Source: Alphaproteobacteria bacterium (GTDB lineage Bacteria > Pseudomonadota > Alphaproteobacteria > Rhodospirillales > Rhodospirillaceae). From it: 64,000 bases of DNA. The notes beneath the pieces were generated by a model. It made no database searches and was not told where the DNA came from. It saw nothing but the letters and a program-made list of their open reading frames with translations. The stretch covers positions 1 to 64,000 of the forward strand of contig QJZR01000020.1 of assembly GCA_003246625.1 (NCBI GenBank), in the 5' to 3' direction. Position numbers and translations under genes: made by a program. This document shows positions 1-46,981 of the stretch, in pieces (position 1 is the stretch's first letter; each line of letters begins with the position of its first letter).

Positions 1-2457
1 AGCCAGGTCGCCGCCCTGACCACCAATCAGATCGTCGCGCTGACCAGCACCGGCATCGCGGCGCTCTCCGCCACCCAGGCGCAGGCCCTGACCGCCGCCC
101 AAATCGGCGCCCTGAACGACACCCAGGTCTCCGCCCTCTCCGCCACCGCCGTGGCCGAGCTGAACAAGACGCAGATTCGCGGCCTCTCCACCACCCAGGT
201 GGCGGCGCTGAACGCCACCGACATCGGCGAGTTCACCGGCACCCAGCTGGGCCTGATGTCGATCGAACAGGTGGCGGCGATCAGCACCACCAGCGTCTCG
301 GCCCTCTCCGCCACCCAGATGGAAAGCCTGGGCACCGCCCGGGTGTCGGCCTTCACCACCACCCAGATCGCGGCGCTGTCCGCCACCGACATCGGCGAGT
401 TCTCCGCCGCGCAGGTCGGCGTCCTCTCCACCAGTCAGTTGGGCGCCCTGACCAGCACCAGCCTGGCCGCCCTCTCCGCCACCCAGGTGGAAGGGATGAC
501 CACCACCCAGGTGCGCGGCCTCACCACCACGCAGATCGCCTCGCTGTCGGCCACCGACATCGGCGAGTTCACCGCCAGCCAGATCGGTGCCCTGACCACC
601 GATCAGATCGGCGCGATCACCTCGACCGCGGTGGCGGCGCTGTCCAACACCCAGGCGGAGGCCCTGACCGCCGCGCAGATCGGTTCGCTGAACGACACTC
701 AGGTCTCCGCCCTGACCGCCACCGCCATCGGCGTCTTCGACAAGACGCAGATCCGTGGCTTCTCGACCACCCAGGTCGCCGCCCTCAACGCCACCGATAT
801 CGGCGAGCTGACCGCGACCCAACTGGGCCTGATGTCCAACGAACAGGTGGCGGCGATCAACACCACCAGCCTGTCGGCGCTCTCCGCCACCCAGATGCAG
901 GGATTGACCGCCCTGCAGATCGCCTTCATGACGACCAGCCAGGTGCAATCGCTGTCGGCCACCGACATCGGCGAACTGAGTGCCACCCAGGTCCGGGCGT
1001 TGACCACCACGCAGTTGGCCTCGCTCTCCACCACCAGCGTCTCGGCCCTCTCCGCCACCCAGGTGGAAGGGATGTCGACCGCGCAGGTGCGGGGCCTCAG
1101 CACCACCCAGTTGGCGGCCCTGTCGGCCACCGACGTCGGCGAGTTCTCCGCCAGCCAGGTCGCCGCGCTGACCACCGATCAGATCGGCGCGCTGACCAGC
1201 ACCGGCATCGCGGCGCTCTCCGCCACCCAGGCGCAGGCCCTGACCGCCGCCCAAATCGGCGCCCTGAACGACACCCAGGTCTCCGCCCTCTCCGCCACCG
1301 CCGTGGCCGAGCTGAACAAGACGCAGATCCGCGGCCTTTCCACCACCCAGGTGGCGGCGCTGAATGCCACCGACATCGGCGAGTTCACCGGCACCCAGCT
1401 GGGCCTGATGTCGATCGAACAGGTGGCGGCGATCAGCACCACCAGTATCTCGGCGCTGACCGCGACGCAGATGGAAAGCCTGGGCACCGAGCGGGTGCCG
1501 GCGTTCACCACCACCCAGATGGCGGCGCTGTCGGCCACCGACATCGGCGAACTCTCCACCGCCCAGGTCGGCGTGCTGTCCACCGGCCAGTTGGCGGCAC
1601 TCTCCACCACCGCCGTGTCGGCGCTGTCCGCCACCCAGATGGAGGCTCTTTCCACCCTGCAGGTGAAGGGCCTGTCCACCACCCAGATCGCGTCGCTGTC
1701 GGCCACCGACATCGGCGAGTTCGCCACCAACCAGATCGGCGCCCTGACCACCACCCAGATCGGCTCGATCACCTCGACCGCGATGGCGGCGTTGACCAGC
1801 ACCCAGGTCCAGGGGTTGAGCGGCGCCCAACTGGCGGCGTTGACCGCGACCAGCCTGTCGGCGCTGTCCGCCACCGCCATGGAGGCCCTGTCCAGCAGCC
1901 AGATCCAGGGGCTGACCACCACCCAGGTGTCGGGCTTGACCACCACCGACATCGGCGAACTTTCCGCCACCCAGGTCGGCGTGCTGACGACGCCGCAACT
2001 GACGGCGCTGTCCACCACCAACCTGTCGGCGCTCTCCGCCACCCAGATGGAAGGTCTGACCACCGCCCAGGTGCGGGTCCTCTCCACCACCCAGATGGAG
2101 GCGCTCTCCGCCACCGACATCGGCGAGCTCTCCGCCACCCAGGTCGGCGTGCTGACCACCACGCAGCTGGCGTCCCTGACCACCACCAGCCTGTCGGCGC
2201 TGAACGCCACCCAGGTCGAGGCTCTGTCCACCTTGCAGGTGAAGGGCATCTCCACCACCCAGGTGGCGGCTCTCTCCACCACCGACGTCGGCGAGTTCTC
2301 CTCCACCCAGGTCGCCGCGCTGACCACCGACCAGGTTACCGTGTTGACCACGACCAACATTTCGGCCATGACAACCACGCAAGCCAACGCCCTGACGCAA
2401 GAGCAGGTTGCCGTCCTCAGCAGCGCCCAGGTCGAGGCTTGGCTGGCGGCTCTTGCC
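1..2457 (+). repeat. Tandem 576-bp super-repeat (24 octapeptide codon blocks)
   Basis: Three nested periods are visible: 24 bp (one octapeptide), blocks of 7, 7 and 10 octapeptides each closing with an ATDIG-type unit, and a 576-bp super-unit of 24 octapeptides. Full super-units lie at 229-804, 805-1380 and 1381-1956. Partial units lie at 1-228 and 1957-2457. Bases 1-150 and 1153-1302 (two super-units apart) are nearly identical at the nucleotide level, which suggests recent duplication or gene conversion. Confidence 0.9.
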
Positions 2458-2460
2458 TAA
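1..2460 (+). CDS. Octapeptide-repeat Ser/Thr-rich protein (5' end outside window)
   Basis: The frame is open from base 1, so the start lies upstream; the GTG at 151 is only an internal codon. The visible 819 residues are almost wholly octapeptides of the form A-L-[ST]-x-T-Q-[IV]-x, for example ALSATQVE, GLTTTQIA and ALSATDIG. Leu at position 2 and Ile/Val/Leu at position 7 are nearly invariant. Units form blocks that end in ATDIG and begin again with EF or EL. There is no Cys, almost no Pro, and a single Trp near the C-terminus (EAWLAALA). It is acidic and rich in Ser, Thr, Ala, Leu and Gln. No catalytic, transmembrane or RTX motif is visible. The regular hydrophobic spacing suggests a long solenoid or filament, possibly a surface or secreted protein. 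The adjacent GT41-type glycosyltransferase makes O-glycosylation on Ser/Thr plausible; that is inference. I do not recognise a named family. Confidence 0.85.
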   Translation, partial: SQVAALTTNQIVALTSTGIAALSATQAQALTAAQIGALNDTQVSALSATAVAELNKTQIRGLSTTQVAALNATDIGEFTGTQLGLMSIEQVAAISTTSVSALSATQMESLGTARVSAFTTTQIAALSATDIGEFSAAQVGVLSTSQLGALTSTSLAALSATQVEGMTTTQVRGLTTTQIASLSATDIGEFTASQIGALTTDQIGAITSTAVAALSNTQAEALTAAQIGSLNDTQVSALTATAIGVFDKTQIRGFSTTQVAALNATDIGELTATQLGLMSNEQVAAINTTSLSALSATQMQGLTALQIAFMTTSQVQSLSATDIGELSATQVRALTTTQLASLSTTSVSALSATQVEGMSTAQVRGLSTTQLAALSATDVGEFSASQVAALTTDQIGALTSTGIAALSATQAQALTAAQIGALNDTQVSALSATAVAELNKTQIRGLSTTQVAALNATDIGEFTGTQLGLMSIEQVAAISTTSISALTATQMESLGTERVPAFTTTQMAALSATDIGELSTAQVGVLSTGQLAALSTTAVSALSATQMEALSTLQVKGLSTTQIASLSATDIGEFATNQIGALTTTQIGSITSTAMAALTSTQVQGLSGAQLAALTATSLSALSATAMEALSSSQIQGLTTTQVSGLTTTDIGELSATQVGVLTTPQLTALSTTNLSALSATQMEGLTTAQVRVLSTTQMEALSATDIGELSATQVGVLTTTQLASLTTTSLSALNATQVEALSTLQVKGISTTQVAALSTTDVGEFSSTQVAALTTDQVTVLTTTNISAMTTTQANALTQEQVAVLSSAQVEAWLAALA

Positions 2461-2515: not shown

Positions 2516-4546
2516 ATGGACAACGAATCTCTGCTGCAACTGGTGAACCGCCTGTCGGAAGAGCCGTTTCCGGTGACCGAAGCGGTGGACGCCGCGATCC
2601 GGCTGCAACGGGAAGGCAACGCCGCCGCCGCCGCGATGGTGTATCGGCTGTGGAGCAAGATCCACGCCGACGACCCCCTGCGTTACGTCGCGCTGTTCAA
2701 CCTGGGCACGATGCTGTCCTCCCAGGGGGACCTGGCCGGGGCGAAGGACGCCCTTGAGGCCGCCATCGCGAGCAAGCCGGATTTTCACCCCGCCTACATC
2801 AATTACGGCGGCGTCCTGGAAAAGCTGGGCAACGCGGACGAGGCCGTGCGCCAGTGGACGGAGATCGTCAAGCAACTGTCCCCGGTGGTGCCGTCGGCGG
2901 TCACCTACAAGGTCACCGCCCTGAAGCAGATCGGCCGCCTGCTCGAGGAAAACCGCCGCCACGCCTCGGCCGAGGCGCATCTGCACGACGCCCTGTCGCT
3001 CGACCCAGACCAGGCCGAAATCGTCCAGCACTTCGTCATGGCGCGGATGGTGCAGTGCAAGTGGCCGGTGGTCGATCCCTGGGAAGAGGTCAGCCGTCTT
3101 CAGCTGATGAAGGGCTTCGAGCCGCTGACCGTGGCCGCGTACGCCGACGACCCGGTTTTCCACATGGGCGTGGCGTGGAACTACAACCGCACCTACGACC
3201 CGCCGCCCGGCACCGCGCCGCTGTGGCGCTCCGCCGCCCGCCCGCCGTCGAAGCGCCTGCGCGTCGGCTATCTGTCGTCGGACCTGCGGGCGCACGCCAT
3301 CGGCTTCCTGATGGCCGAATTGTTCGAACTGCACGACCGCAAGCGTTTCGAGGTCACCGCGTACTACTGCGGCATTCCCGAGGACGACGCGATCAAGACG
3401 CGCATCCGGGGGGCGGTCGAGCATTGGGTGGACGTTTCCGCCCTCGACGACGACGCCGCGGCCCGGAAAATCGCCGACGACAACATCGACATCCTGATCG
3501 ACGTCAACGGCTATACCCGCAGCGCCCGGGGGCATCTGCTCTCGCTCAGGCCCGCGCCGGTGATCGTCAACTGGCTGGGTTTCCCCGGCACCATGGGCAG
3601 CCCCCACCACAACTATCTGCTGGCCGATCCCTGGATCGTCCCCGAGGGCGACGAAATCTATTACACGGAAAAGGTTCTGCGCCTGCCGTGCTATCAGCCC
3701 AACGACCGCAAGCGGGCCATCGCGCCGCATCGCCCCACCCGCGCCGAGGTCGGCCTGCCCGAAAACGCCGTCGTCTATTGCAGCTTCAACGGCAGTCACA
3801 AGTTCACCCGCTTCACCTTCGACCGCTGGATGCAGATCCTTCAAGAGGTGCCGGGAAGCGTTCTTTGGCTGCTCGGCGTGTCCGAACCGGTGGACCAGGG
3901 GATCGCCCAACAGGCCCAGGCCCGCGGCATCGATCCCGCGCGGATCGTCTTCGCGCCGAAAATCGCCAACCCCTTTCATCTGGCCCGTTATCCGCTGGCC
4001 GACCTGTTCCTCGACTCCGCCCCCTACGGCGCCCACACCACCGCCTCGGACGCGATGTGGATGGGGGTTCCGGTGCTCACCTTCGCGGGGCGCAGTTTCG
4101 CCGCCCGGGTCTGCGCCAGTTTGGTGCGCGCGGCGGGGATGCCCGACCTGGTCTGCGACGGGCCGGACGAATTCGTCGCCCGCGCCATCGCCCTGGGGCG
4201 CGACCCCGCCGCCCTGCGCGGCTATCGCGACCGGCTGGAGGCCAACCGCAAGACCTGCACGCTGTTCGACATGGATGCCCATGTCCGCGGCCTGGAGGGG
4301 CTGTTGCGCGAAATGTGGGGCGACTTCGAGGCCGGACGGCTGCCGCAGCCGGACCTGCGCAATCTCGACGTCTATCGCGATCTGGCCCTGGCCGACGATT
4401 ACGAAGGCATCGAACGAATCCGCATCGAGGACCTTGCCGGACACTATCGCGCCCTGCTCGCGGCGCGCGACCGCGTTCGGCCGGTGCCCGAAGATGCACG
4501 ACTGTGGACTCCGAAGGCCAGAACGGCCGCGCGGGAGTCCGCCTAA
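2516..4546 (+). CDS. TPR protein with GT41 (O-GlcNAc transferase/SPINDLY-type) glycosyltransferase domain
   Basis: The 676-residue protein has TPR-like helical repeats around residues 55-170 (for example YVALFNLGTMLSSQGDLAGA). A GT41 catalytic region runs from about 245 to 610. Hallmarks of O-GlcNAc transferases follow in order: VGYLSSDLRAHAIGFLM with the conserved His, LIDVNGYT, NWLGFPGTMGSPHHNYLLAD, SFNGSHKFTRFTFDRW with the Lys, and SAPYGAHTTASDAMWMG plus VPVLTF. The family transfers sugars from nucleotide donors, usually UDP-GlcNAc, to Ser/Thr of proteins, with the TPRs binding the acceptor. The gene directly follows the Ser/Thr-rich octapeptide gene and leads a run of sugar-modifying genes. 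Family assignment is firm; donor and acceptor are inferred. It is probably cytoplasmic. Confidence 0.92.
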   Translation: MDNESLLQLVNRLSEEPFPVTEAVDAAIRLQREGNAAAAAMVYRLWSKIHADDPLRYVALFNLGTMLSSQGDLAGAKDALEAAIASKPDFHPAYINYGGVLEKLGNADEAVRQWTEIVKQLSPVVPSAVTYKVTALKQIGRLLEENRRHASAEAHLHDALSLDPDQAEIVQHFVMARMVQCKWPVVDPWEEVSRLQLMKGFEPLTVAAYADDPVFHMGVAWNYNRTYDPPPGTAPLWRSAARPPSKRLRVGYLSSDLRAHAIGFLMAELFELHDRKRFEVTAYYCGIPEDDAIKTRIRGAVEHWVDVSALDDDAAARKIADDNIDILIDVNGYTRSARGHLLSLRPAPVIVNWLGFPGTMGSPHHNYLLADPWIVPEGDEIYYTEKVLRLPCYQPNDRKRAIAPHRPTRAEVGLPENAVVYCSFNGSHKFTRFTFDRWMQILQEVPGSVLWLLGVSEPVDQGIAQQAQARGIDPARIVFAPKIANPFHLARYPLADLFLDSAPYGAHTTASDAMWMGVPVLTFAGRSFAARVCASLVRAAGMPDLVCDGPDEFVARAIALGRDPAALRGYRDRLEANRKTCTLFDMDAHVRGLEGLLREMWGDFEAGRLPQPDLRNLDVYRDLALADDYEGIERIRIEDLAGHYRALLAARDRVRPVPEDARLWTPKARTAARESA

Positions 4547-4784: not shown

Positions 4785-5567
4785 CTAGCCCTCTTGCCCG
4801 AAGAGATGCCGGGCGAACGCCGGAAGCCGACGGAAGGCCAGGTGCAGCCCCTCGTTGAAGCTGGCCACCTGGAAGCCGTGCCGCGCCCAAAGGATTTGCA
4901 GGGACTTCCGGGAATGGATCGAAACGTGCCCCGACCTGGGGGACACGTAGCTCCAATACAGGCCCCGCTCGTCGAAATCCACCGGCTGCACCAGGGTCGA
5001 GAACAGCACCACCCCGGCATCCTGCAAAAGCGACTTGATCACGCCGATGGTTTCCATGGGGTCCGGCACGTGTTCCAGGACCTCGTAGCAGGTGATCAGG
5101 TCGAACTTTCCCTCCGGCATGGTGCTGGCCTGGTCGTTGAAGGGGTCGTAGGGGACGACCTCGGAAAAGCCGGTTTCCCGCAGGAATTGGCCGAGCAGGC
5201 CGTTGCCGCTGCCGTAATCCAGGATGGACAGACTGTCCCGGGAGCCGCCGAACAGCGCCTCGATGGTCTTGGCGTTGCCCTGCGGCCGTTCGAGGACCGA
5301 ACCGGGGTCGATGCGCGGATAGAATTCGTTGTAGATGAACTCGGCGTAATCCTCGCGGCCCCACGCGTCGAACGACGCGGTGAACAGGAAACCGCATTCG
5401 GGGCAGCGGTTATAGAAGACCATCTGCCCCGAGGGCGGCACGGCATAGTTCTCCCACGCCGGGCCCGGCTTGTTGAAGTCGATGGCGCCGAACAGCGGCG
5501 CCGGGTTGCCGCAGACCTTGCACGCGCGCACCCGCGCACGCGCCATCGGGGGGAATTCGCCGGACAT
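4785..5567 (-). CDS. Zinc-ribbon class I SAM-dependent methyltransferase
   Basis: The 260-residue protein begins with a Cys4 ribbon: CKVCGNP near residue 16 and CPECGFLF near residue 56. A Rossmann methyltransferase domain follows, with motif I ILDYGSGNGLLG and the acidic motif DLITCYEVLEHVPDP. This layout matches sugar C- or O-methyltransferases found in glycan clusters. The ATG at 5567 is preferred because it lies 3 bp after the stop of the upstream GT9 gene; the longer open frame reads through that gene. Its likely role is methylation of a nucleotide sugar or of a glycan made by its neighbours. Confidence 0.82.
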   Translation of the reverse strand: MSGEFPPMARARVRACKVCGNPAPLFGAIDFNKPGPAWENYAVPPSGQMVFYNRCPECGFLFTASFDAWGREDYAEFIYNEFYPRIDPGSVLERPQGNAKTIEALFGGSRDSLSILDYGSGNGLLGQFLRETGFSEVVPYDPFNDQASTMPEGKFDLITCYEVLEHVPDPMETIGVIKSLLQDAGVVLFSTLVQPVDFDERGLYWSYVSPRSGHVSIHSRKSLQILWARHGFQVASFNEGLHLAFRRLPAFARHLFGQEG

Positions 5568-5569
5568 TC

Positions 5570-6694
5570 TCAGACCCCTTCGTCGCTGGACTTGCGATGG
5601 CCGCCGCTTTCGGCCATCAGGCGATCGAACCCCGCCAGAATCTCGGCGGGGTCGATGGAACGGATGGCCTGGCCGGTTTCGACCGCGCGCTCGTCGAAGC
5701 CCGGCAGGGTGGGAACCACCACGCGATGCGGGCATCCGTTGACCGGGGCGAAGGCGGGCAGGCCGCAGAAACGGCTTTCCGGAAGCAGCGAGCCATAGTT
5801 CCGGGCCAGATAGTCGGGGATATGCCCGACCTCGCAGATCGGCGTTTCCACCGCGGCGGCCAGATGCTTCGGCCCGGAATCGACGGTGACGATCGCCGCG
5901 CACGCCTCGATCAGGCAGGTCTGCTGGCCGATGGTGATTGCCTTGGTCAGGTCGATGCAGCTTCCCCGCAGCGCCGGATAGGGCCTCTGCCCGATCAGGA
6001 TCGGGGTGAAGCCGCGCGCGGCGACCCCCCGGATGACGCCCGACACCTGGGCGTCGTCCAGCACCTTCATCACGTGGGTGCCCGCCCCGTGCACCGCGAC
6101 GAAGCCCCGGCCGCGCGGCATGCCGCTCAGCGCCCGCTCGATCTGGCGGCGTTCTTCCGGGTCGGCGAACAGGTCGTAGCCGTCGGTCTTGAAGTCGACG
6201 CCGTAGACCTGCTTGAAGAAGATTTCCTGATAGTCGGCGATGTTGGCCAGGTTGGGCCGGTCGAGCAGGTCGGTGAAATAGTCGTTGGAATTATAATTCC
6301 GGATCACCCAGCGGTCCTGCCGGAAGCCGATTTTCCGTTTCGCCTTTATCCGGGCGACGATGACGCCGTAAAGGTTGGTTTCGTGCGGGTCCGGCACATA
6401 GACGTAGTCGAAGGCCTGGCCGTCCAGGCCCTCCAGCGCCCGGTCCAGGGCGGGAATGTCCAGGCCGTTCTCGTCGATCAGGCGGGCGACGACGGGGGCG
6501 TCCAGCCGCTGGTTGACGTAGGGATTGTTCTTGTAGAAGTCCTGCATGTGGAAGGAATGCATGAAGGTGATGTGCGCATCCGGTTCCAGGCTGCGCAGCT
6601 TCTTCAAGGCGCGCGAAAAGATCACATGGTCGCCCAGGCCGCCATGCCGAATGATCAGGATCTTCTTCACCGGAGGGATCACGCCACCCACCAT
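5570..6694 (-). CDS. GT9 (heptosyltransferase-like) glycosyltransferase
   Basis: This protein has 374 residues from the ATG at 6694; a GTG a few codons later, just before KKILIIRHGGLGDHV, is an alternative start. The N-terminal RHGGLGDHVIFSRALKKLR motif is the ADP-heptose:LPS heptosyltransferase-type nucleotide-binding start. The C-terminal VTVDSGPKHLAAAVETPICE is the GT9 sugar-donor signature (D-S-G-P-x-H-L-A-A-A). It also carries HGAGTHVMKVL in the second Rossmann lobe. The donor may be ADP-heptose or another activated sugar. It ends 3 bp before the zinc-ribbon methyltransferase gene and lies 47 bp after the radical SAM fusion gene, so the three are probably one minus-strand operon. Confidence 0.85.
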   Translation of the reverse strand: MVGGVIPPVKKILIIRHGGLGDHVIFSRALKKLRSLEPDAHITFMHSFHMQDFYKNNPYVNQRLDAPVVARLIDENGLDIPALDRALEGLDGQAFDYVYVPDPHETNLYGVIVARIKAKRKIGFRQDRWVIRNYNSNDYFTDLLDRPNLANIADYQEIFFKQVYGVDFKTDGYDLFADPEERRQIERALSGMPRGRGFVAVHGAGTHVMKVLDDAQVSGVIRGVAARGFTPILIGQRPYPALRGSCIDLTKAITIGQQTCLIEACAAIVTVDSGPKHLAAAVETPICEVGHIPDYLARNYGSLLPESRFCGLPAFAPVNGCPHRVVVPTLPGFDERAVETGQAIRSIDPAEILAGFDRLMAESGGHRKSSDEGV

Positions 6695-6741
6695 TCGAGA
6701 GAATGAACGCCCGCGGAACGCGGCGACGACGGAAACCCCGG

Positions 6742-8517
6742 CTAGGGGGTCTTGTAGGCGACGTGGATATGATGCCGCCCGATGTCCTTGCCCAGGAACT
6801 CCAGGCCGTTCGGCACGACGCGGACGTACTTGTCCAGTTCGCCGGTCTTGAAGACCACGGTGTCGCCGTTCAGGGTATCGGTCAGCTTGATCTCCGGCGG
6901 CAGTTCCGTCATCGGCAGGAAGGAAGCGAAACCCGCCGAGGTCAGGACGCCCAGTTGCGACCACTTGCCGCTTTTCTTGACCACGCCGTTCCAGTTCTCG
7001 CCCAGGCTGCGGCTCGACAAATGGGTGACGTGCAGGTCGGGGACGAACACCAGCTTGTGGCGCGGCCACTGCTGGAAGAACCAGGAATCGATGCCGCCCG
7101 CCGAACAGAACGCCTCGGACAGGGCCTTCGGCCACCGTTCGCGGATGGACAGGGCGCGGGGATGGAACAGCTGGAAATAGCCGTTCGGTTCCCGGTTGAC
7201 CGAGGCCTGCTGGTTCTCCACCTCGCTCTCGTCGCTGCGCTGGGTATAGTAGAGGCAACCCGGATTCAGGGCATGGTTGAGGACATAGGCCCGCAGCCCC
7301 CGGTTCATGAAGATGTCGGCGTCGGTGAACACCACCCAGTCGGGGTCCTTCAGGGCCTCGATGGCGTCGTTCATCATCTTGCCCTTGTTGAAGGCGTGGT
7401 CGTCGTCGTAGCAGCGGTCGGAAACCACCAGGGTCGCGCCGTTCTCCCGCGCCACCTTCTGGGTCTCCTTGTCCTCGGAACTGGTGACGACGACGATCTG
7501 GTCGAACAAAGGGGCGTTGTGCGGCAGGGTCCGCTTCAGCATCTCGGCATAGCCGACCGAGACCAGCACGCACGACACCCGGCGCGGAAACGCCGAGACG
7601 TTGCCGATGCCGACGCGCGGCCCCTCGCCGACATAGCTGTCGCGGCGCTGAATGGTGCGCTGTTCGTTATGGTATCCGGCGTCGTACAGCTCGTACTTGC
7701 CCTTCTTCACCGCCGGGCTTCCGGCCTTGGCCAGCCGTTGCAGGTTCTGCGCCGAGACGATATCCCGCTCCAGCGCGTCGATCTGCGACGGGCCGGGTTG
7801 GGCCAGCGCGCAGCAATCGCAGAGTTCCAGCTGGTTGCCGAAGTCTTCCGGCTTGCGCTGCCACCAGCCGTGTTCGATCGGCCAGGCGTGCGCGCCGTTG
7901 AAGAACAGACGGTCGATCGCGGCGGCGACCTCGCAGAAATAGGCGCCCTTGTCGTTCATCGCCGCCGACCACAGGTTCTGCACCCAGCAATTGTCGCGGT
8001 TCTGCACCCACTGCTCCTGCGACATCCCGGTCGCCGCGACGTAGTCTTCCCGCGAGATCAGAAGCGCCTGGTGCAGACCGGCGGATTCATGGGTGTTGGT
8101 GTTCCAATGCCCATAGACCTCCATGATCGTCTCGTAATGGCGATAGAAGCCCTCGCCCAGGCTGGTCCACAGGCCGCGCCCGGTGGAGCGGTCGAACAGC
8201 CGTTCGTTGGCGAAGCGGTTGAAGTCCTCGACCGGGGCGAGGCCGTTGTTGGTCGTCGGGCCGCCCCAGATTTCCGCGAAACGGCGGGAGAGTTTCTCGA
8301 AATCGGCGTGCAGCGTCGGCTCCCCGGCGATGATGCCGATCACCCGGTTCGGCCCCTGCCATCCCTCCATGCTGGCGACGGCGCGCTCGAAGGCGGCGAG
8401 GGACAGATCCTCCCGCTTGGGCTGGTGCGAAATCAACCGCGTGCAGTTCGAACATTTCTTGTGGCATTTCGTGCTGATGTCGATTTGGACGATGTCCATG
8501 TCCGCCGGAGAACGCAT
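6742..8517 (-). CDS. Radical SAM-like domain fused to a GT-A glycosyltransferase
   Basis: The 591-residue protein is a fusion. The N-terminus has IDISTKCHKKCSNC, the CxxxCxxC triad of radical SAM enzymes, followed by IIAGEPTLH, the usual glycine-rich/GE strand. Further Cys (NCWVQN, YFCEV and LCDCCALA, in the region around residues 190-260) could hold an auxiliary iron-sulfur cluster in a SPASM-like region. From about residue 310 a GT-A glycosyltransferase-like domain begins (RVSCVLVSVGYAEM, then WVVFTDADIFMN with the DxD metal site). This suggests one chain that both rearranges or epimerises a sugar or peptide and glycosylates it. The start at 8517 has an upstream GGCGGCAGGT-like ribosome site; the ATG at 8499 is an alternative. 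Confidence 0.78.
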   Translation of the reverse strand: MRSPADMDIVQIDISTKCHKKCSNCTRLISHQPKREDLSLAAFERAVASMEGWQGPNRVIGIIAGEPTLHADFEKLSRRFAEIWGGPTTNNGLAPVEDFNRFANERLFDRSTGRGLWTSLGEGFYRHYETIMEVYGHWNTNTHESAGLHQALLISREDYVAATGMSQEQWVQNRDNCWVQNLWSAAMNDKGAYFCEVAAAIDRLFFNGAHAWPIEHGWWQRKPEDFGNQLELCDCCALAQPGPSQIDALERDIVSAQNLQRLAKAGSPAVKKGKYELYDAGYHNEQRTIQRRDSYVGEGPRVGIGNVSAFPRRVSCVLVSVGYAEMLKRTLPHNAPLFDQIVVVTSSEDKETQKVARENGATLVVSDRCYDDDHAFNKGKMMNDAIEALKDPDWVVFTDADIFMNRGLRAYVLNHALNPGCLYYTQRSDESEVENQQASVNREPNGYFQLFHPRALSIRERWPKALSEAFCSAGGIDSWFFQQWPRHKLVFVPDLHVTHLSSRSLGENWNGVVKKSGKWSQLGVLTSAGFASFLPMTELPPEIKLTDTLNGDTVVFKTGELDKYVRVVPNGLEFLGKDIGRHHIHVAYKTP

Positions 8518-8890: not shown

Positions 8891-10150
8891 ATGCTCGCCG
8901 ACCTCCTCCATTCCCTGAAATTCGGTGGCTACGCGCCGCGCACGCTGCTCGACGTCGGGGCGAACCTGGGGGCCTTCTCCCGCGCCTTCGTCGAGGTCTT
9001 TCCCCACTGCCTGCCGACCCTGGTCGAGCCCAATCCCCACTGCCTGACGCGGTTGCGGGACCTGCCCTTCGAGGTGTTGCCGGTCGCCGCCTCGAACCGC
9101 AACGGCAACGCCGAGCTTTTCCTCACCGCGGAGTGGCCGGAAACCCCCGGCGCCTCGCTCTACCGCGAGAACACCGCCTTCTTCCGCGACGAGGTGCTGG
9201 TCCGGGAAAAGGTCCGCGCCGCCTGCCTGGACCTGCGGCTGGCGGGACGGCGCTTCGACTTCGTCAAGATCGACGTGCGGGGGTCGGAAATCGACGTCCT
9301 CGACGGCGGCGCCGAGGTCATCCGCGAGGCGGACTACGTTCTGGTCGCGGCGCCGATGACCGAATACAACATCGGCGCGCCGCCGGTCGAACGCCTGTTC
9401 GACAAACTCGCCGAACTCGGCTTCCGCTGCGCCCAGGTGGTGGGCTTCCACCGCATCGGCGGCACCCCGGACGGACCCTTGCAGCAGATGGACGTCCTGT
9501 TCGAGCGCCTGACGCCGCGCGCCGCGCAGGATTACCGCTATCGGGCGGTCGGCGACCGCGCCGACCTGCTGGCCCACCTGACGGAAACCAAGCGCCGGTC
9601 GACCGGCTTTTCCGTGATCGGCCTGGGCGCCGGCCCCTGGGCGGACGAGATCGCCGACGCCGCCTTCGGCGCCGCCCCCGCCGACGCGCCGTTGCGCTTC
9701 GCCGGAGACCCCAACGACGCCGACGGCTGGATGCCGGTGCTGAAGCACGTCGAACGGCACGGCAAGTTCTCGTACGCCGTCTGCTCCCACCTGATCGAGG
9801 GCATGGCCGACCCGGCGCTGCTGTTGCGCATGCTGCCGCGCGTCGCCGAGGCGGGGACGATCGCCGCCCCCTCGAAATTCGTCGCCCTGCCCCGCGCCGA
9901 AGGCCCCTATCGCGGCATCCTCGGCCACCGCTGGATCGTCTGCGGCCGCAACGGACAGCTCGTCCTCGTCCCCAAGATCCCGCTGATCGACTATCTGAAC
10001 CTGCCGGACGAAGAGGCCTGGCGCGCCGATGCCGCGCGCCATGAAATCCAGATCTTCTGGCGCCGGACCATCCAGGCGAAAATCCTCGACCCCGGCGTCG
10101 CCGCGGCGGTCGACCTGTTCGCCCAAACCCTGAGCGGCCAAGACCCATGA
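8891..10150 (+). CDS. FkbM-family methyltransferase with a second methyltransferase-like half
   Basis: The 419-residue protein has an N-terminal FkbM methyltransferase (about 1-215): LLDVGANLGAFS (motif I), LVEPNPHCL and FDFVKIDVRGSEIDVL. FkbM enzymes O-methylate sugars or polyketides. The C-terminal half (about 220-410) has a second Rossmann-like start, FSVIGLGAGPWADEI, then YAVCSHLIEGMADPALLLRM, which mirrors the EHLxDP strand of class I methyltransferases. It ends in a PYRGILGHRWIV segment. The second half may be degenerate or have another role. The stop overlaps the start of the next gene by 4 bp (ATGA), which indicates translational coupling. Confidence 0.82.
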   Translation: MLADLLHSLKFGGYAPRTLLDVGANLGAFSRAFVEVFPHCLPTLVEPNPHCLTRLRDLPFEVLPVAASNRNGNAELFLTAEWPETPGASLYRENTAFFRDEVLVREKVRAACLDLRLAGRRFDFVKIDVRGSEIDVLDGGAEVIREADYVLVAAPMTEYNIGAPPVERLFDKLAELGFRCAQVVGFHRIGGTPDGPLQQMDVLFERLTPRAAQDYRYRAVGDRADLLAHLTETKRRSTGFSVIGLGAGPWADEIADAAFGAAPADAPLRFAGDPNDADGWMPVLKHVERHGKFSYAVCSHLIEGMADPALLLRMLPRVAEAGTIAAPSKFVALPRAEGPYRGILGHRWIVCGRNGQLVLVPKIPLIDYLNLPDEEAWRADAARHEIQIFWRRTIQAKILDPGVAAAVDLFAQTLSGQDP

Positions 10151-11256
10151 AAATCCTGTTCATCGACACCTGCGGCTGGGCCTACGACACCACCACGCCG
10201 GTCCGCCAGCCCCTGGGCGGGGCGCAATCCGCCATGGTCTACCTGACCATGGCGCTGGCGCGCATGGGACACGACGTCTACGTCATCAACGAAACCCGCG
10301 ACCCGCGCGAACTCGTCACCGACGGGGTGCACTTCATCAGCCTGCCCCTCTCCCTGCAGGAGACCGACAGCTTCGACGTCATCGTCTCGTCGAACAACGC
10401 CAACGGGGTGGCGATCGCCTCGGGCGGCTGCCGCACCCCCCTGGTCCTGTGGTCCCATCACGCCTGCGACCAGGGGTCCATCCAGGCGCTCGCCGAGCAA
10501 CGGGAACGGGACGCCTTCGCCGGGTACGTGCTGCTGACGAAATGGCAGACCGACACCTACGTCGACACCTTCCACCTGGACCCGGCCAAGATCCGGATCA
10601 TCCGCAACGCCGCTTCCCCCGCCTTCCACGGGGTGGAACGGACGGAATTCGGCTGGCTGGAACAGGGCAAACCGCCGGTCCTCGCCTATACCAGCACCCC
10701 CTATCGCGGCCTCGACATCCTGCTGCTCGCCTTCCCGATGATCCGGGAACGGCTGCCCGGCGCGACCCTGCGCATCTTTTCCAGCATGGGCATCTACGAC
10801 GCCGGGGTGTGGGACCCCTTCACCTCCCTCTACGCCCTGGCGCGGACGATGCCGGGGGTGGAATACGTCGGCCCCCTGGCGCAGCCCGAACTCGCCCGGG
10901 AAATGGCCAAGGTGGACATCTGGGCCTATCCCAGCACCTTCGCCGAAACCTCGTGCGTTTCCGCCCTGGAGGCGATGGCGGCGGGCGCCTTCTGCGTCAG
11001 CACCGCCCTGGGGGCGCTGCCGGAAACCACGGCGGGCTTCGCCCACCTGATGCCGCCGCTGGTCACCAACTATCCCGGCGTCGCGGCGACGCGCTTCGCC
11101 ACCCACCTGCTGGAATCCGTCGAGGCCGCCGCGCGCGACAAGGCGGCGGCCCTGGCGCGCATCCGCGAACAGGTGGAATTCGTCCGCTCGTATTACGACT
11201 GGGACCTGCGCGCCAAGGAATGGACCCTGTGGCTGGAACAGGTACTCAAGCGCTGA
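10147..11256 (+). CDS. GT4-type glycosyltransferase (GT-B fold)
   Basis: The 369-residue protein has an N-terminal lobe with a glycine-rich acceptor loop, PLGGAQSAMVYLTMALARMGHD written in two parts as PLGGAQSAMVYL and ALARMGHDVYV. The C-terminal lobe has ILLLAFPMIRERLPGATLRI, the linker VEYVGPLAQPEL, and the GT4 donor motif IWAYPSTFAETSCVSALEAM with its E-x7-E. Proteins of this kind transfer hexoses from nucleotide sugars to lipid-linked or protein-linked glycans at the cytoplasmic membrane. It is coupled to the FkbM gene and followed by a strong terminator. Confidence 0.87.
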   Translation: MKILFIDTCGWAYDTTTPVRQPLGGAQSAMVYLTMALARMGHDVYVINETRDPRELVTDGVHFISLPLSLQETDSFDVIVSSNNANGVAIASGGCRTPLVLWSHHACDQGSIQALAEQRERDAFAGYVLLTKWQTDTYVDTFHLDPAKIRIIRNAASPAFHGVERTEFGWLEQGKPPVLAYTSTPYRGLDILLLAFPMIRERLPGATLRIFSSMGIYDAGVWDPFTSLYALARTMPGVEYVGPLAQPELAREMAKVDIWAYPSTFAETSCVSALEAMAAGAFCVSTALGALPETTAGFAHLMPPLVTNYPGVAATRFATHLLESVEAAARDKAAALARIREQVEFVRSYYDWDLRAKEWTLWLEQVLKR

Positions 11257-45970: not shown

Positions 45971-46981
45971 ATGAATTACCAAGCCATCGCCGACCAGGCG
46001 ATCGCGAAGCAGCCGCTCAGCCGCGAACAGGCCCTGGCCATTCTCGGCGCGCCGGATACCGACGTGATGGACATGCTGGCCGCCGCCTATCGGGTGCGCC
46101 GCCACTTCCGCGGCAACCGCGTGCACGTGCAGCTGCTGAGCAACGTGAAGAGCGGGCTGTGCGGCGAGGACTGCCACTATTGCTCGCAGTCGCGGGTTTC
46201 CAAGGCGCCGATCGACAAGTACGGTCTGTGGCAGAAGGAAAAGGCCCAGGACGAGGCGAAGCGCGCCACCGCCATGGACGCCAAGCGCTATTGCATGGCG
46301 CTGTCCGGCGGCCAGCCGACCGACCGCGAGATCGACAACCTGGCCGACATGGTCCGTTCGATCAAGGCCGAGAGCAAGATCGAGCTCTGCCTGTCGATCG
46401 GCTTCCTGACCCCGGCGCAGGCGAAGAAGCTGGCGGACGCGGGCCTCGACCGCATCAACCACAACCTCAACACCAGCGAACGCTATTACTCCACCATCTG
46501 CACCTCGCACACCTACGCCGACCGGGTGAAGAACCTGATGACGGCGAAGGAAGCGGGCCTCGACATCTGCTCGGGCGGCATCATCGGCCAGGGCGAGACC
46601 GACGAGGACATCTTCGACATGTTCGACGCCCTGCGCGCCATCGAACCGAAGTCGATTCCGCTGAACTTCCTGATCCCGGTCGAGGGCACGCCGTTCGGCG
46701 AGATGACCCCCAACCTGACCCCGCGCAAGTGCCTGAAGGCGCTCAGCCTGCTGCGCTTCATGCACCCGGACGTGGACCTGCGGGTGGCGGGCGGCCGCGA
46801 ACATCACCTGCGCTCCATGCAGCCGCTGGCGATGTACGCCGCGAACTCGATCTTCGTCGAGGGCTACCTGACCTGCGACGGCCAGGAAACCCCGGCGGCG
46901 ATCCAGATGATCGCGGACATGGGCTTCGAGCTGGAGGTCGAATCCGCCTCGGAGGATTCGCTCGGCACCGCGGCCGCCTGA
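45971..46981 (+). CDS. bioB: Biotin synthase
   Basis: The 336-residue radical SAM enzyme has the cluster motif GLCGEDCHYCSQS (CxxxCxxC), the [2Fe-2S] ligand Cys residues (for example ELCLSIGFL and DICSGGIIGQGE), and YYSTICTSHTY. It inserts sulfur into dethiobiotin. Family length is normal, and the ATG at 45971 excludes a low-quality upstream extension. It is the first gene of the bioB-F-H-C-D-A operon. Confidence 0.97.
   Translation: MNYQAIADQAIAKQPLSREQALAILGAPDTDVMDMLAAAYRVRRHFRGNRVHVQLLSNVKSGLCGEDCHYCSQSRVSKAPIDKYGLWQKEKAQDEAKRATAMDAKRYCMALSGGQPTDREIDNLADMVRSIKAESKIELCLSIGFLTPAQAKKLADAGLDRINHNLNTSERYYSTICTSHTYADRVKNLMTAKEAGLDICSGGIIGQGETDEDIFDMFDALRAIEPKSIPLNFLIPVEGTPFGEMTPNLTPRKCLKALSLLRFMHPDVDLRVAGGREHHLRSMQPLAMYAANSIFVEGYLTCDGQETPAAIQMIADMGFELEVESASEDSLGTAAA

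Follow-up and report, generated by a model that had tools for sequence, protein, structure and literature searches.

Does a single reading frame in an alphaproteobacterial genome truly join a radical SAM (rSAM) enzyme to a glycosyltransferase (GT), and if so, what might the combined chain do? The gene in question lies on the minus strand at positions 6742..8517 of the window, by which we mean the whole 64,000-nucleotide stretch of DNA analysed; it starts with an ATG at 8517, stops at 6742-6744 and encodes 591 residues in one frame, with an rSAM half at residues 1-260 and a GT-A half at residues 313-525. A sequence-only reading had described the chain as an rSAM-GT fusion on the basis of a CxxxCxxC motif, extra cysteine clusters and a DxD motif after about residue 310, and had proposed a domain search of both halves, a survey for the same fusion and structure prediction for the auxiliary cluster ligands. 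Pfam detects both halves, each under its curated cut-off: Radical_SAM scores 18.8 bits against 29.5 (residues 14-83, E 0.0019) and Glyco_tranf_2_4 scores 26 bits against 27.5 (residues 325-404), while searches of NCBIfam and PHROGs with the window protein returned weak partial matches only. Since all Pfam matches fall below their cut-offs, that reading was right on something that profile libraries nearly miss. A second Radical_SAM match elsewhere in the window, at 46154-46630, exceeds the cut-off with 82 bits.

A full-length model of the window protein has a mean pLDDT of 80.8, and the survey recovered orthologous chains with the same two-domain architecture in 13 of 28 bacterial and archaeal loci, relatives that exclude chance as the source of the arrangement, together with eight fused viral loci. 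In seven of seven pairs compared, dN is well below dS in both halves, indicating purifying selection on the rSAM and GT parts alike; of the four parts, the C-terminal tail is the one with the largest dN in six of the seven. Together, these data indicate that the fusion is true and conserved and that it is one branch of a larger, phage-linked pairing of rSAM and GT genes, and we agree with the earlier view that such a fusion is unusual and suggestive of coupled chemistry.

The rSAM and twitch half (residues 1-260; 7738..8517, minus strand) is recognized weakly by Pfam and more clearly by fold. Among the structures listed, a model covering residues 1-276 (mean pLDDT 82.5) aligns best with SpeY (7x0b; Z 14.6 over 219 residues, 3.3 Å) and then with BtrN (4m7t; Z 11.4 over 187 residues, 3.8 Å), after which the ranking passes to two peptide enzymes and anSME, at Z 9.9 and lower. 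The Foldseek ranking agrees: only six chains match at E <=0.001, four of them SpeY and the other two BtrN. When PDB sequences are searched with a profile built from this half, the top match is BtrN (E 6.5e-5); it spans profile positions 8-117, which cover the core without the twitch part, and the match to SpeY is non-significant (E 0.055). Identity to SpeY and BtrN in the structural alignments is 13-19%, and in the full model residues 144-148, which adjoin the invariant H143 and H149, have pLDDT below 50. Despite the sub-cut-off Pfam score, the model has the partial TIM barrel of the radical SAM fold, with Z up to 14.6, and the N-terminal half matches radical SAM enzymes in both sequence and fold.

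The cysteines of this half are strongly conserved. The CxxxCxxC motif noted earlier is C18, C22 and C25 (8443..8466, minus strand), a predicted SAM-binding [4Fe-4S] site present in 95 of 96 distinct rSAM domains drawn from the window, bacteria and viral contigs, the exception being an N-terminally truncated row. Four further cysteines are present in all 96 and form a predicted auxiliary site: C177 (7987..7989), C195 (7933..7935), which is followed by the invariant E196, and the CxxC pair C233/C236 (7810..7821), all on the minus strand. The intervening C235 of the window protein is not conserved. As the patterns used for scanning included C18 and C22, or C195, conservation of those residues is partly by construction, while C177, C233 and C236 were absent from every scan pattern. 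N141, H143, H149, W183, E196, W219 and Q229 are kept in 95 or 96 of the 96 domains.

How many auxiliary clusters could these cysteines hold? The seven-cysteine SPASM motif, CX9-15GX4C-gap-CX2CX5CX3C-gap-C as quoted in PMC6231123, was not matched in the rSAM half, where the pattern after the core is C177-X13-G191-X3-C195 plus one CxxC. With just four conserved cysteines after the core in the family, we rejected a SPASM domain or several auxiliary clusters; the extra cysteines of the sequence-only reading therefore stand, and their division into several clusters does not. What fits the model is a twitch type, namely a truncated SPASM domain with one predicted auxiliary cluster. According to PMC9012708 and PMC6231123, the auxiliary cluster of BtrN is ligated by four cysteines and is a possible acceptor of the second electron, and that of MoaA is held by three cysteines and binds substrate at its open iron. 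Four conserved cysteines are compatible with a fully Cys-ligated cluster as in BtrN, the ligation itself being predicted, and on this architecture we favor an oxidising BtrN-like mode over the MoaA mode, with the caution, voiced in PMC6231123 itself, that sequence is a poor guide to function within this rSAM subfamily.

A linker at residues 261-312 (7582..7737, minus strand) joins the halves through a low-confidence stretch (residues 285-305, pLDDT below 50), and the GT-A domain (6943..7581, minus strand) begins near residue 313, in agreement with the boundary first suggested. Its DxD motif is D399-A400-D401 (7315..7323, minus strand), invariant in seven of seven aligned domains, the viral one included, which also share conserved FNKG and AGxxD stretches. 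The FNKG...DAD...AGGxD pattern is one that we take to resemble beta-1,4-galactosyltransferases, with only weak PHROG matches behind that likeness. GT2-type Pfam domains match from residue 324 (best E 1.4e-5), all below cut-off. From residue 312 the full model aligns with the GT-A enzymes WrtF (Z 16.1, 175 residues), SpsA (15.1), TarS (15.1) and ThuS (14.8); SunS is also among these folds, which places the domain near the SunS/ThuS peptide S-glycosyltransferases. Overall, the C-terminal half is a modelled GT-A fold carrying DxD, for which sugar transfer is predicted. A beta-rich tail in the model (residues 526-591; 6745..6942, minus strand) completes the chain.

The gene is rare in the taxonomic surroundings of the window. 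None was found in seven further genomes of the same genus; at E <=0.001, four of 61 genomes gave a match, the window's own counted, and the rSAM profile at E 1e-6 matched three of 385 genomes of the class and seven of 297 of the order, counts that include the window's own genome and two weak matches (G354 and G642) to other rSAM genes. The full profile at E 1e-8 matched three of 398 genomes of the phylum, and tblastn of the window protein against 72,556 plasmid records gave nothing at E 1e-5. The genome-search matches in G354 and G642 (33-34 bits) and in G024 were assigned to other rSAM families, to which the one in G825 probably belongs as well; the G024 locus (L012, G024:C6:6037-6243) holds a 292-residue frame of another rSAM with an FNLxPxxD-like stretch and is perhaps a distant cousin. 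In G009, a genome of the window's family, a 147-residue frame (L019:1417-1857, minus strand) resembles a decayed piece of the rSAM.

A wider pattern scan of 84,980 bacterial and archaeal species genomes matched 140 stretches, which resolved into the 28 loci. The 13 fused loci come from Caulobacter, Phenylobacterium, Paracraurococcus, Hyphomicrobiales and other alphaproteobacterial records; a profile detects the GT half in all 13, one of which (L039) is cut by a contig end, and 12 of the 13 were aligned and share 62-70% identity with the window protein. The rSAM stands alone in eight of the 28, mostly Desulfovibrionales by title. In three it is followed by a GT2-like part, for which Pfam on L010 (the same gene as L026) gave GT2 at E 3.2e-33, and in three more (L021-L023) it carries an unassigned C-terminal part; an FkbM identity guessed by eye for that part of L021 was supported neither by Pfam nor by BLASTP with the window's FkbM protein. 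One Lachnospiraceae contig (L045) encodes two rSAM chains, at 2654-4261 and 6417-8078, each with an extra tail, and the tail has a sub-cut-off Pfam match to C2185-like_N. Both L045 chains are followed by what looks by eye like a GT2-like gene, and the C-terminal part of the first gives a hint (E 0.46) of a worn-down GT. Stand-alone rSAM genes in L027-L033 and L046, mostly Desulfovibrionales, have as neighbors further rSAM genes, a GT2-like gene and one that may be Maf-like, the names being assigned by eye from L028 and L033.

Relatives are abundant in viral contigs. An rSAM-only scan of the viral collection matched 127 stretches, of which 108 were relatives (tblastn E 1e-3) and 80 were kept. 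A GT is fused or nearby in 62 of these 80 loci, several of which are near-copies of one another and many of which lie on short contigs, where absences mean little. The window-type GT is fused in three and forms a separate gene on the same contig stretch in 13. On viral contig L050, a separate 219-residue GT gene lies 0.8 kb downstream of the rSAM and shares 31% identity with the window's GT half (E 5e-28). Another GT2 cluster lies within 2.5 kb of the rSAM in 41, accompanied by a nucleotide-sugar epimerase cluster in 18 and a terminase cluster in 37 of those 41, with cluster names resting on one tested member each; in L082, the sole representative tested, an epimerase (phrog_540, E 8.9e-63) and a GT2 (E 2.2e-7) adjoin the rSAM. 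Five loci carry an exostosin-type fusion or its neighbors, 11 have a major-head-protein gene and/or the v11 gene without the tested GT types nearby, and seven fell in no class. The v11 gene is phrog_3742, whose function is not known and which appears scaffold-like by eye.

The reciprocal scan with the GT half found 33 viral loci, three of them on contigs already known from the earlier searches and one of these the query's own. An rSAM was also present in 24 of the 33 (E <1e-20), fused in six and separate in 18, and was not seen in the other nine within the contig stretches examined; this reciprocity led us to reject a chance pairing of the halves. Two of the eight fused viral loci, L158 and L165, are alike in sequence. 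On representatives, PHROG assignments show that the viral rSAM and GT genes adjoin those for terminase, portal, protease and the major head protein. Among the fused forms, such tests found head genes around L154, L156 and L165 and gave no match for the one neighbor of L163 that was compared. In L154 (4005-4529), L156 (1701-2315) and L165 (6327-6848) the fused gene comes after a short gene for a class I methyltransferase, recognized by Pfam as Methyltransf_24 in L156 and L165 and by eye in L154. In a different arrangement, L049:7012-8859 places an exostosin (GT47) domain N-terminal to the rSAM (Pfam E 3.4e-30), and L112, L116, L122 and L123 share it by clustering and length; on one side of these genes is a second glycosyltransferase, on the other a short gene of GT9-like appearance by eye, without a Pfam or PHROG match. 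No match at E 1e-5 came from tblastn of four queries (the window protein, two viral rSAMs and a viral GT) against the 50,697 annotated phage records, and of ten proteins compared with PHROG, the stand-alone viral rSAMs gave weak partial matches and the GTs none, so that neither half has a strong family there.

Where, then, did the bacterial fusion come from? We built a tree of 113 rSAM domains, leaving out matches of fewer than 200 residues and identical rows. Twenty of the 21 fused rows cluster together (support 100/96), and the 14 bacterial rows, including the window, are nested inside this cluster, with L056, L055, L156, L154 plus L165, and L163 branching successively before them with starred support. 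Taken at face value, this branching order would derive the bacterial fusion from phages; some of these contigs classed as viral may in fact be host DNA, although head genes adjoin the fused gene in L154, L156 and L165. The remaining fused row, L073, is a long branch. On the full 113-row tree the fused label needs two changes, and the starred branches force two. We nonetheless set aside two independent fusion origins: in that tree L073 joins L159, and both are long branches. In a thinned tree of 96 rows, from which L159, L078 and two-thirds of the near-copy viral rows (L1xx rows in which no GT was seen) had been removed, L073 is placed next to a grouping of the fused rows and the Lachnospiraceae rows, and a single origin is not rejected (p-AU 0.131).

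In the window, the fused gene sits within a group of sugar-related genes. At lower coordinates on the plus strand are an ALTTAQ-repeat protein, cut by the contig start and a possible glycosylation target (1..2460; PF20080, E 1.5e-112), and a TPR-GT41 transferase of the SPINDLY/OGT type (2516..4546; PF13844, E 2e-76). Two minus-strand genes follow, a class I methyltransferase (4785..5582; PF13489, E 7.9e-30) and a GT9-type glycosyltransferase (5570..6670; PF01075, E 6.2e-10), then the rSAM-GT gene itself, and beyond it on the plus strand an FkbM methyltransferase (8891..10150; PF05050, E 2.7e-10) and a GT4-type glycosyltransferase (10147..11256; PF13692, E 3.9e-12). The fused gene has a G+C of 0.64 against 0.683 for the window, a deviation that says little because the two minus-strand neighbors are equally low (0.647 and 0.649). 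One ALTTAQ-repeat frame runs off the contig start (819 residues) and another off the end of contig C12 (1,884 residues; G000:C12:234687-240338, equivalent to L174:12688-18339), and the two are probably one giant repeat protein split by assembly.

This neighborhood is only partly shared. A simple pattern count over the 13 other fused bacterial loci found ALTTAQ-like repeats near the fused gene in two, L039 and L041, the flanks being of different lengths; these two also contain a GT41-type gene, found by Pfam in L039 and as a blastp cluster in L041. In the Caulobacter and Phenylobacterium loci read (L035, L037, L040 and L044), the neighbors, named by eye, are mainly housekeeping genes, which indicates that a sugar-gene cluster is not required; in L044 a sugar-nucleotidyltransferase-like and kinase-like pair, again named by eye, lies next to the fused gene. 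That the ALTTAQ protein is a glycosylation target is a guess from the neighborhood.

Based on these data, which support two domains, one four-cysteine site, a dehydrogenase-like fold and a GT partnership in both sequence and model, we propose that the chain is a two-step sugar-tailoring enzyme that couples dehydrogenation of a sugar by a twitch rSAM with GT-A transfer, a reading that we consider evenly balanced between right and wrong; the odds that the rSAM half oxidises a sugar are likewise about even. The cluster at C18, C22 and C25 would cleave SAM to a 5'-deoxyadenosyl radical, which would take a hydrogen from a carbinol carbon of the sugar, and the four-cysteine auxiliary cluster (C177, C195, C233 and C236) would accept the second electron to leave a keto-sugar. 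The DxD-bearing GT-A half would then add this keto-sugar to an acceptor or, with the steps reversed, make a glycoside that the rSAM half oxidises. In the window the likely target of glycosylation would be the neighboring giant ALTTAQ-repeat protein or a different surface glycan; in phages, where the pair lies among head genes, that position suggests decoration of the virion or a change to the host surface. The earlier suggestion that a radical-modified sugar or peptide may be channelled between the halves is hereby narrowed as to its substrate: a sugar is favored because the closest solved folds are BtrN/SpeY-type dehydrogenases, and a peptide is less favored. The GT41, GT9, GT4 and FkbM neighbors in the window and the epimerase and GT2 genes in viral loci speak for the sugar-tailoring reading, as do the fold ranking, the four auxiliary cysteines, the 24 of 33 GT loci with an rSAM and the purifying selection on both halves; the low identity to SpeY and BtrN, the reliance on predicted models with a low-confidence stretch beside H143 and H149, the core-limited sequence match to BtrN and the non-significant one to SpeY, the 11 of 80 viral loci lacking a tested GT and the seven in no class, the nine of 33 GT loci in which no rSAM was seen and the mainly housekeeping neighbors in the Caulobacter and Phenylobacterium loci read speak against it.

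Related twitch and SPASM enzymes also catalyse epimerisation, peptide cross-linking and ring formation, and the strongest competing explanation, although unlikely in our estimation, is that the rSAM half alters a protein side chain, by oxidation or otherwise, and that the GT half glycosylates the same protein, which in phages would be the capsid. Its appeal comes from the 11 viral loci in which the rSAM lies beside a major-head-protein gene (phrog_3437 in L069) and/or its upstream neighbor with no tested GT, from anSME, an rSAM enzyme acting on an amino-acid side chain, and RiPP enzymes being the next folds (Z 9.1-9.9), and from the resemblance of the GT fold to SunS and ThuS. SpeY (14.6) and BtrN (11.4), both aminocyclitol or sugar enzymes, are clearly closer, however, and a single auxiliary site without the SPASM seven-cysteine motif, together with a fused or nearby GT in 62 of 80 viral loci, also argues against a protein target. 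The loci with head-protein and/or phrog_3742 neighbors and no tested GT are L061, L062, L063, L064, L066-L071 and L103, and the head-gene position of such stand-alone rSAM relatives hints at a capsid-linked role.

It is somewhat less probable again that the rSAM half is a NeoN-like sugar epimerase, in which a residue would return the hydrogen and invert the stereocenter without net oxidation. Radical SAM enzymes with auxiliary clusters do include epimerases, the peptide epimerase EpeE is matched at Z 7.7, and the sugar context would serve this explanation as well as the dehydrogenase one; EpeE, the epimerase in the fold comparison, nevertheless falls far below SpeY and BtrN. Quite improbable is a C-terminal half that acts as a nucleotidyltransferase-like GT-A relative, activating a sugar instead of transferring it: NTP_transf_3 matches the window protein at E 0.0015 and Foldseek places IspD (4kt7) at ranks 10 and 11, but the 50 fold matches listed for the full model are all glycosyltransferases except two SpeY rows belonging to the other half, and the FNKG and AGxxD stretches are conserved alongside DxD. 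Split genes exist in other records, yet a frameshift or assembly error joining two genes, or a decaying pseudogene, has a negligible chance of explaining 13 further bacterial and eight viral fusions with dN far below dS in both halves in all seven pairs.

The sugar-tailoring reading can be extended to a broader scenario, possible but doubtful on present data, in which a hitherto unrecorded class of phage-borne twitch rSAM dehydrogenases and their partner GTs, encoded within a head-gene operon of uncultivated tailed phages, put radical-oxidised keto-sugars on virions or on the infected cell, and alphaproteobacteria took over the fused version for glycosylation of their own surface. If true, phages would make oxidised sugars by oxygen-sensitive radical chemistry during head assembly or host-surface change, and the rSAM-GT pair recurring among viral head genes would point to an unstudied route to oxidised surface sugars. 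The bacterial fusion offers a single chain, with no obvious need for a partner, in which such coupling could be assayed directly.

How does this family compare with known systems? Our literature search, which mostly covered papers outside subscription, found no description of an rSAM-GT fusion or of a phage-linked pairing, and none of SpeY or ALTTAQ. The GT half shares its GT-A fold and DxD with WrtF, SpsA, TarS/TarP, SunS/ThuS and K4CP (Z 14-16), from which it differs in its 10-17% identity and in its fusion, as no rSAM fusion occurs among the matches listed. Pelagimyophages, as described in PMC7029224, offer a likeness in phage-carried sugar-transfer genes, thought to alter host O-chains or DNA, and in rSAM gene cassettes, of this or another family, within a hypervariable region; their GTs accompany tail-fibre genes in hypervariable regions, whereas the genes described here, rSAM and GT alike, have terminase, portal and capsid genes around them in the loci tested. 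BtrN (4m7s, 4m7t), the 2-deoxy-scyllo-inosamine dehydrogenase, which acts on aminocyclitols or sugars according to PMC9012708, is the second closest fold and the best sequence-profile match to the rSAM half. It likewise has a twitch domain with one auxiliary [4Fe-4S] cluster held by four cysteines, as predicted for the window family, but it is a stand-alone enzyme of 13% identity, and the window family carries an invariant set of its own in N141, H143, H149, W183, E196, W219 and Q229. SpeY (7wzv, 7wzx, 7x0b, titled 'Twitch Radical SAM Dehydrogenase') is the closest fold, at 17-19% structural identity, and its PDB chain is about 300 residues long and unfused. SpeY belongs to the spectinomycin pathway, in which a glycosyltransferase step adjoins its own, and its substrates are aminocyclitols or sugars. 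SpeY and BtrN, the nearest structurally solved twitch rSAM dehydrogenases, belong to antibiotic pathways; here, chemistry predicted to be of their type is linked to sugar transfer, both within one chain and by gene neighborhood, and is spread through uncultivated viral contigs.
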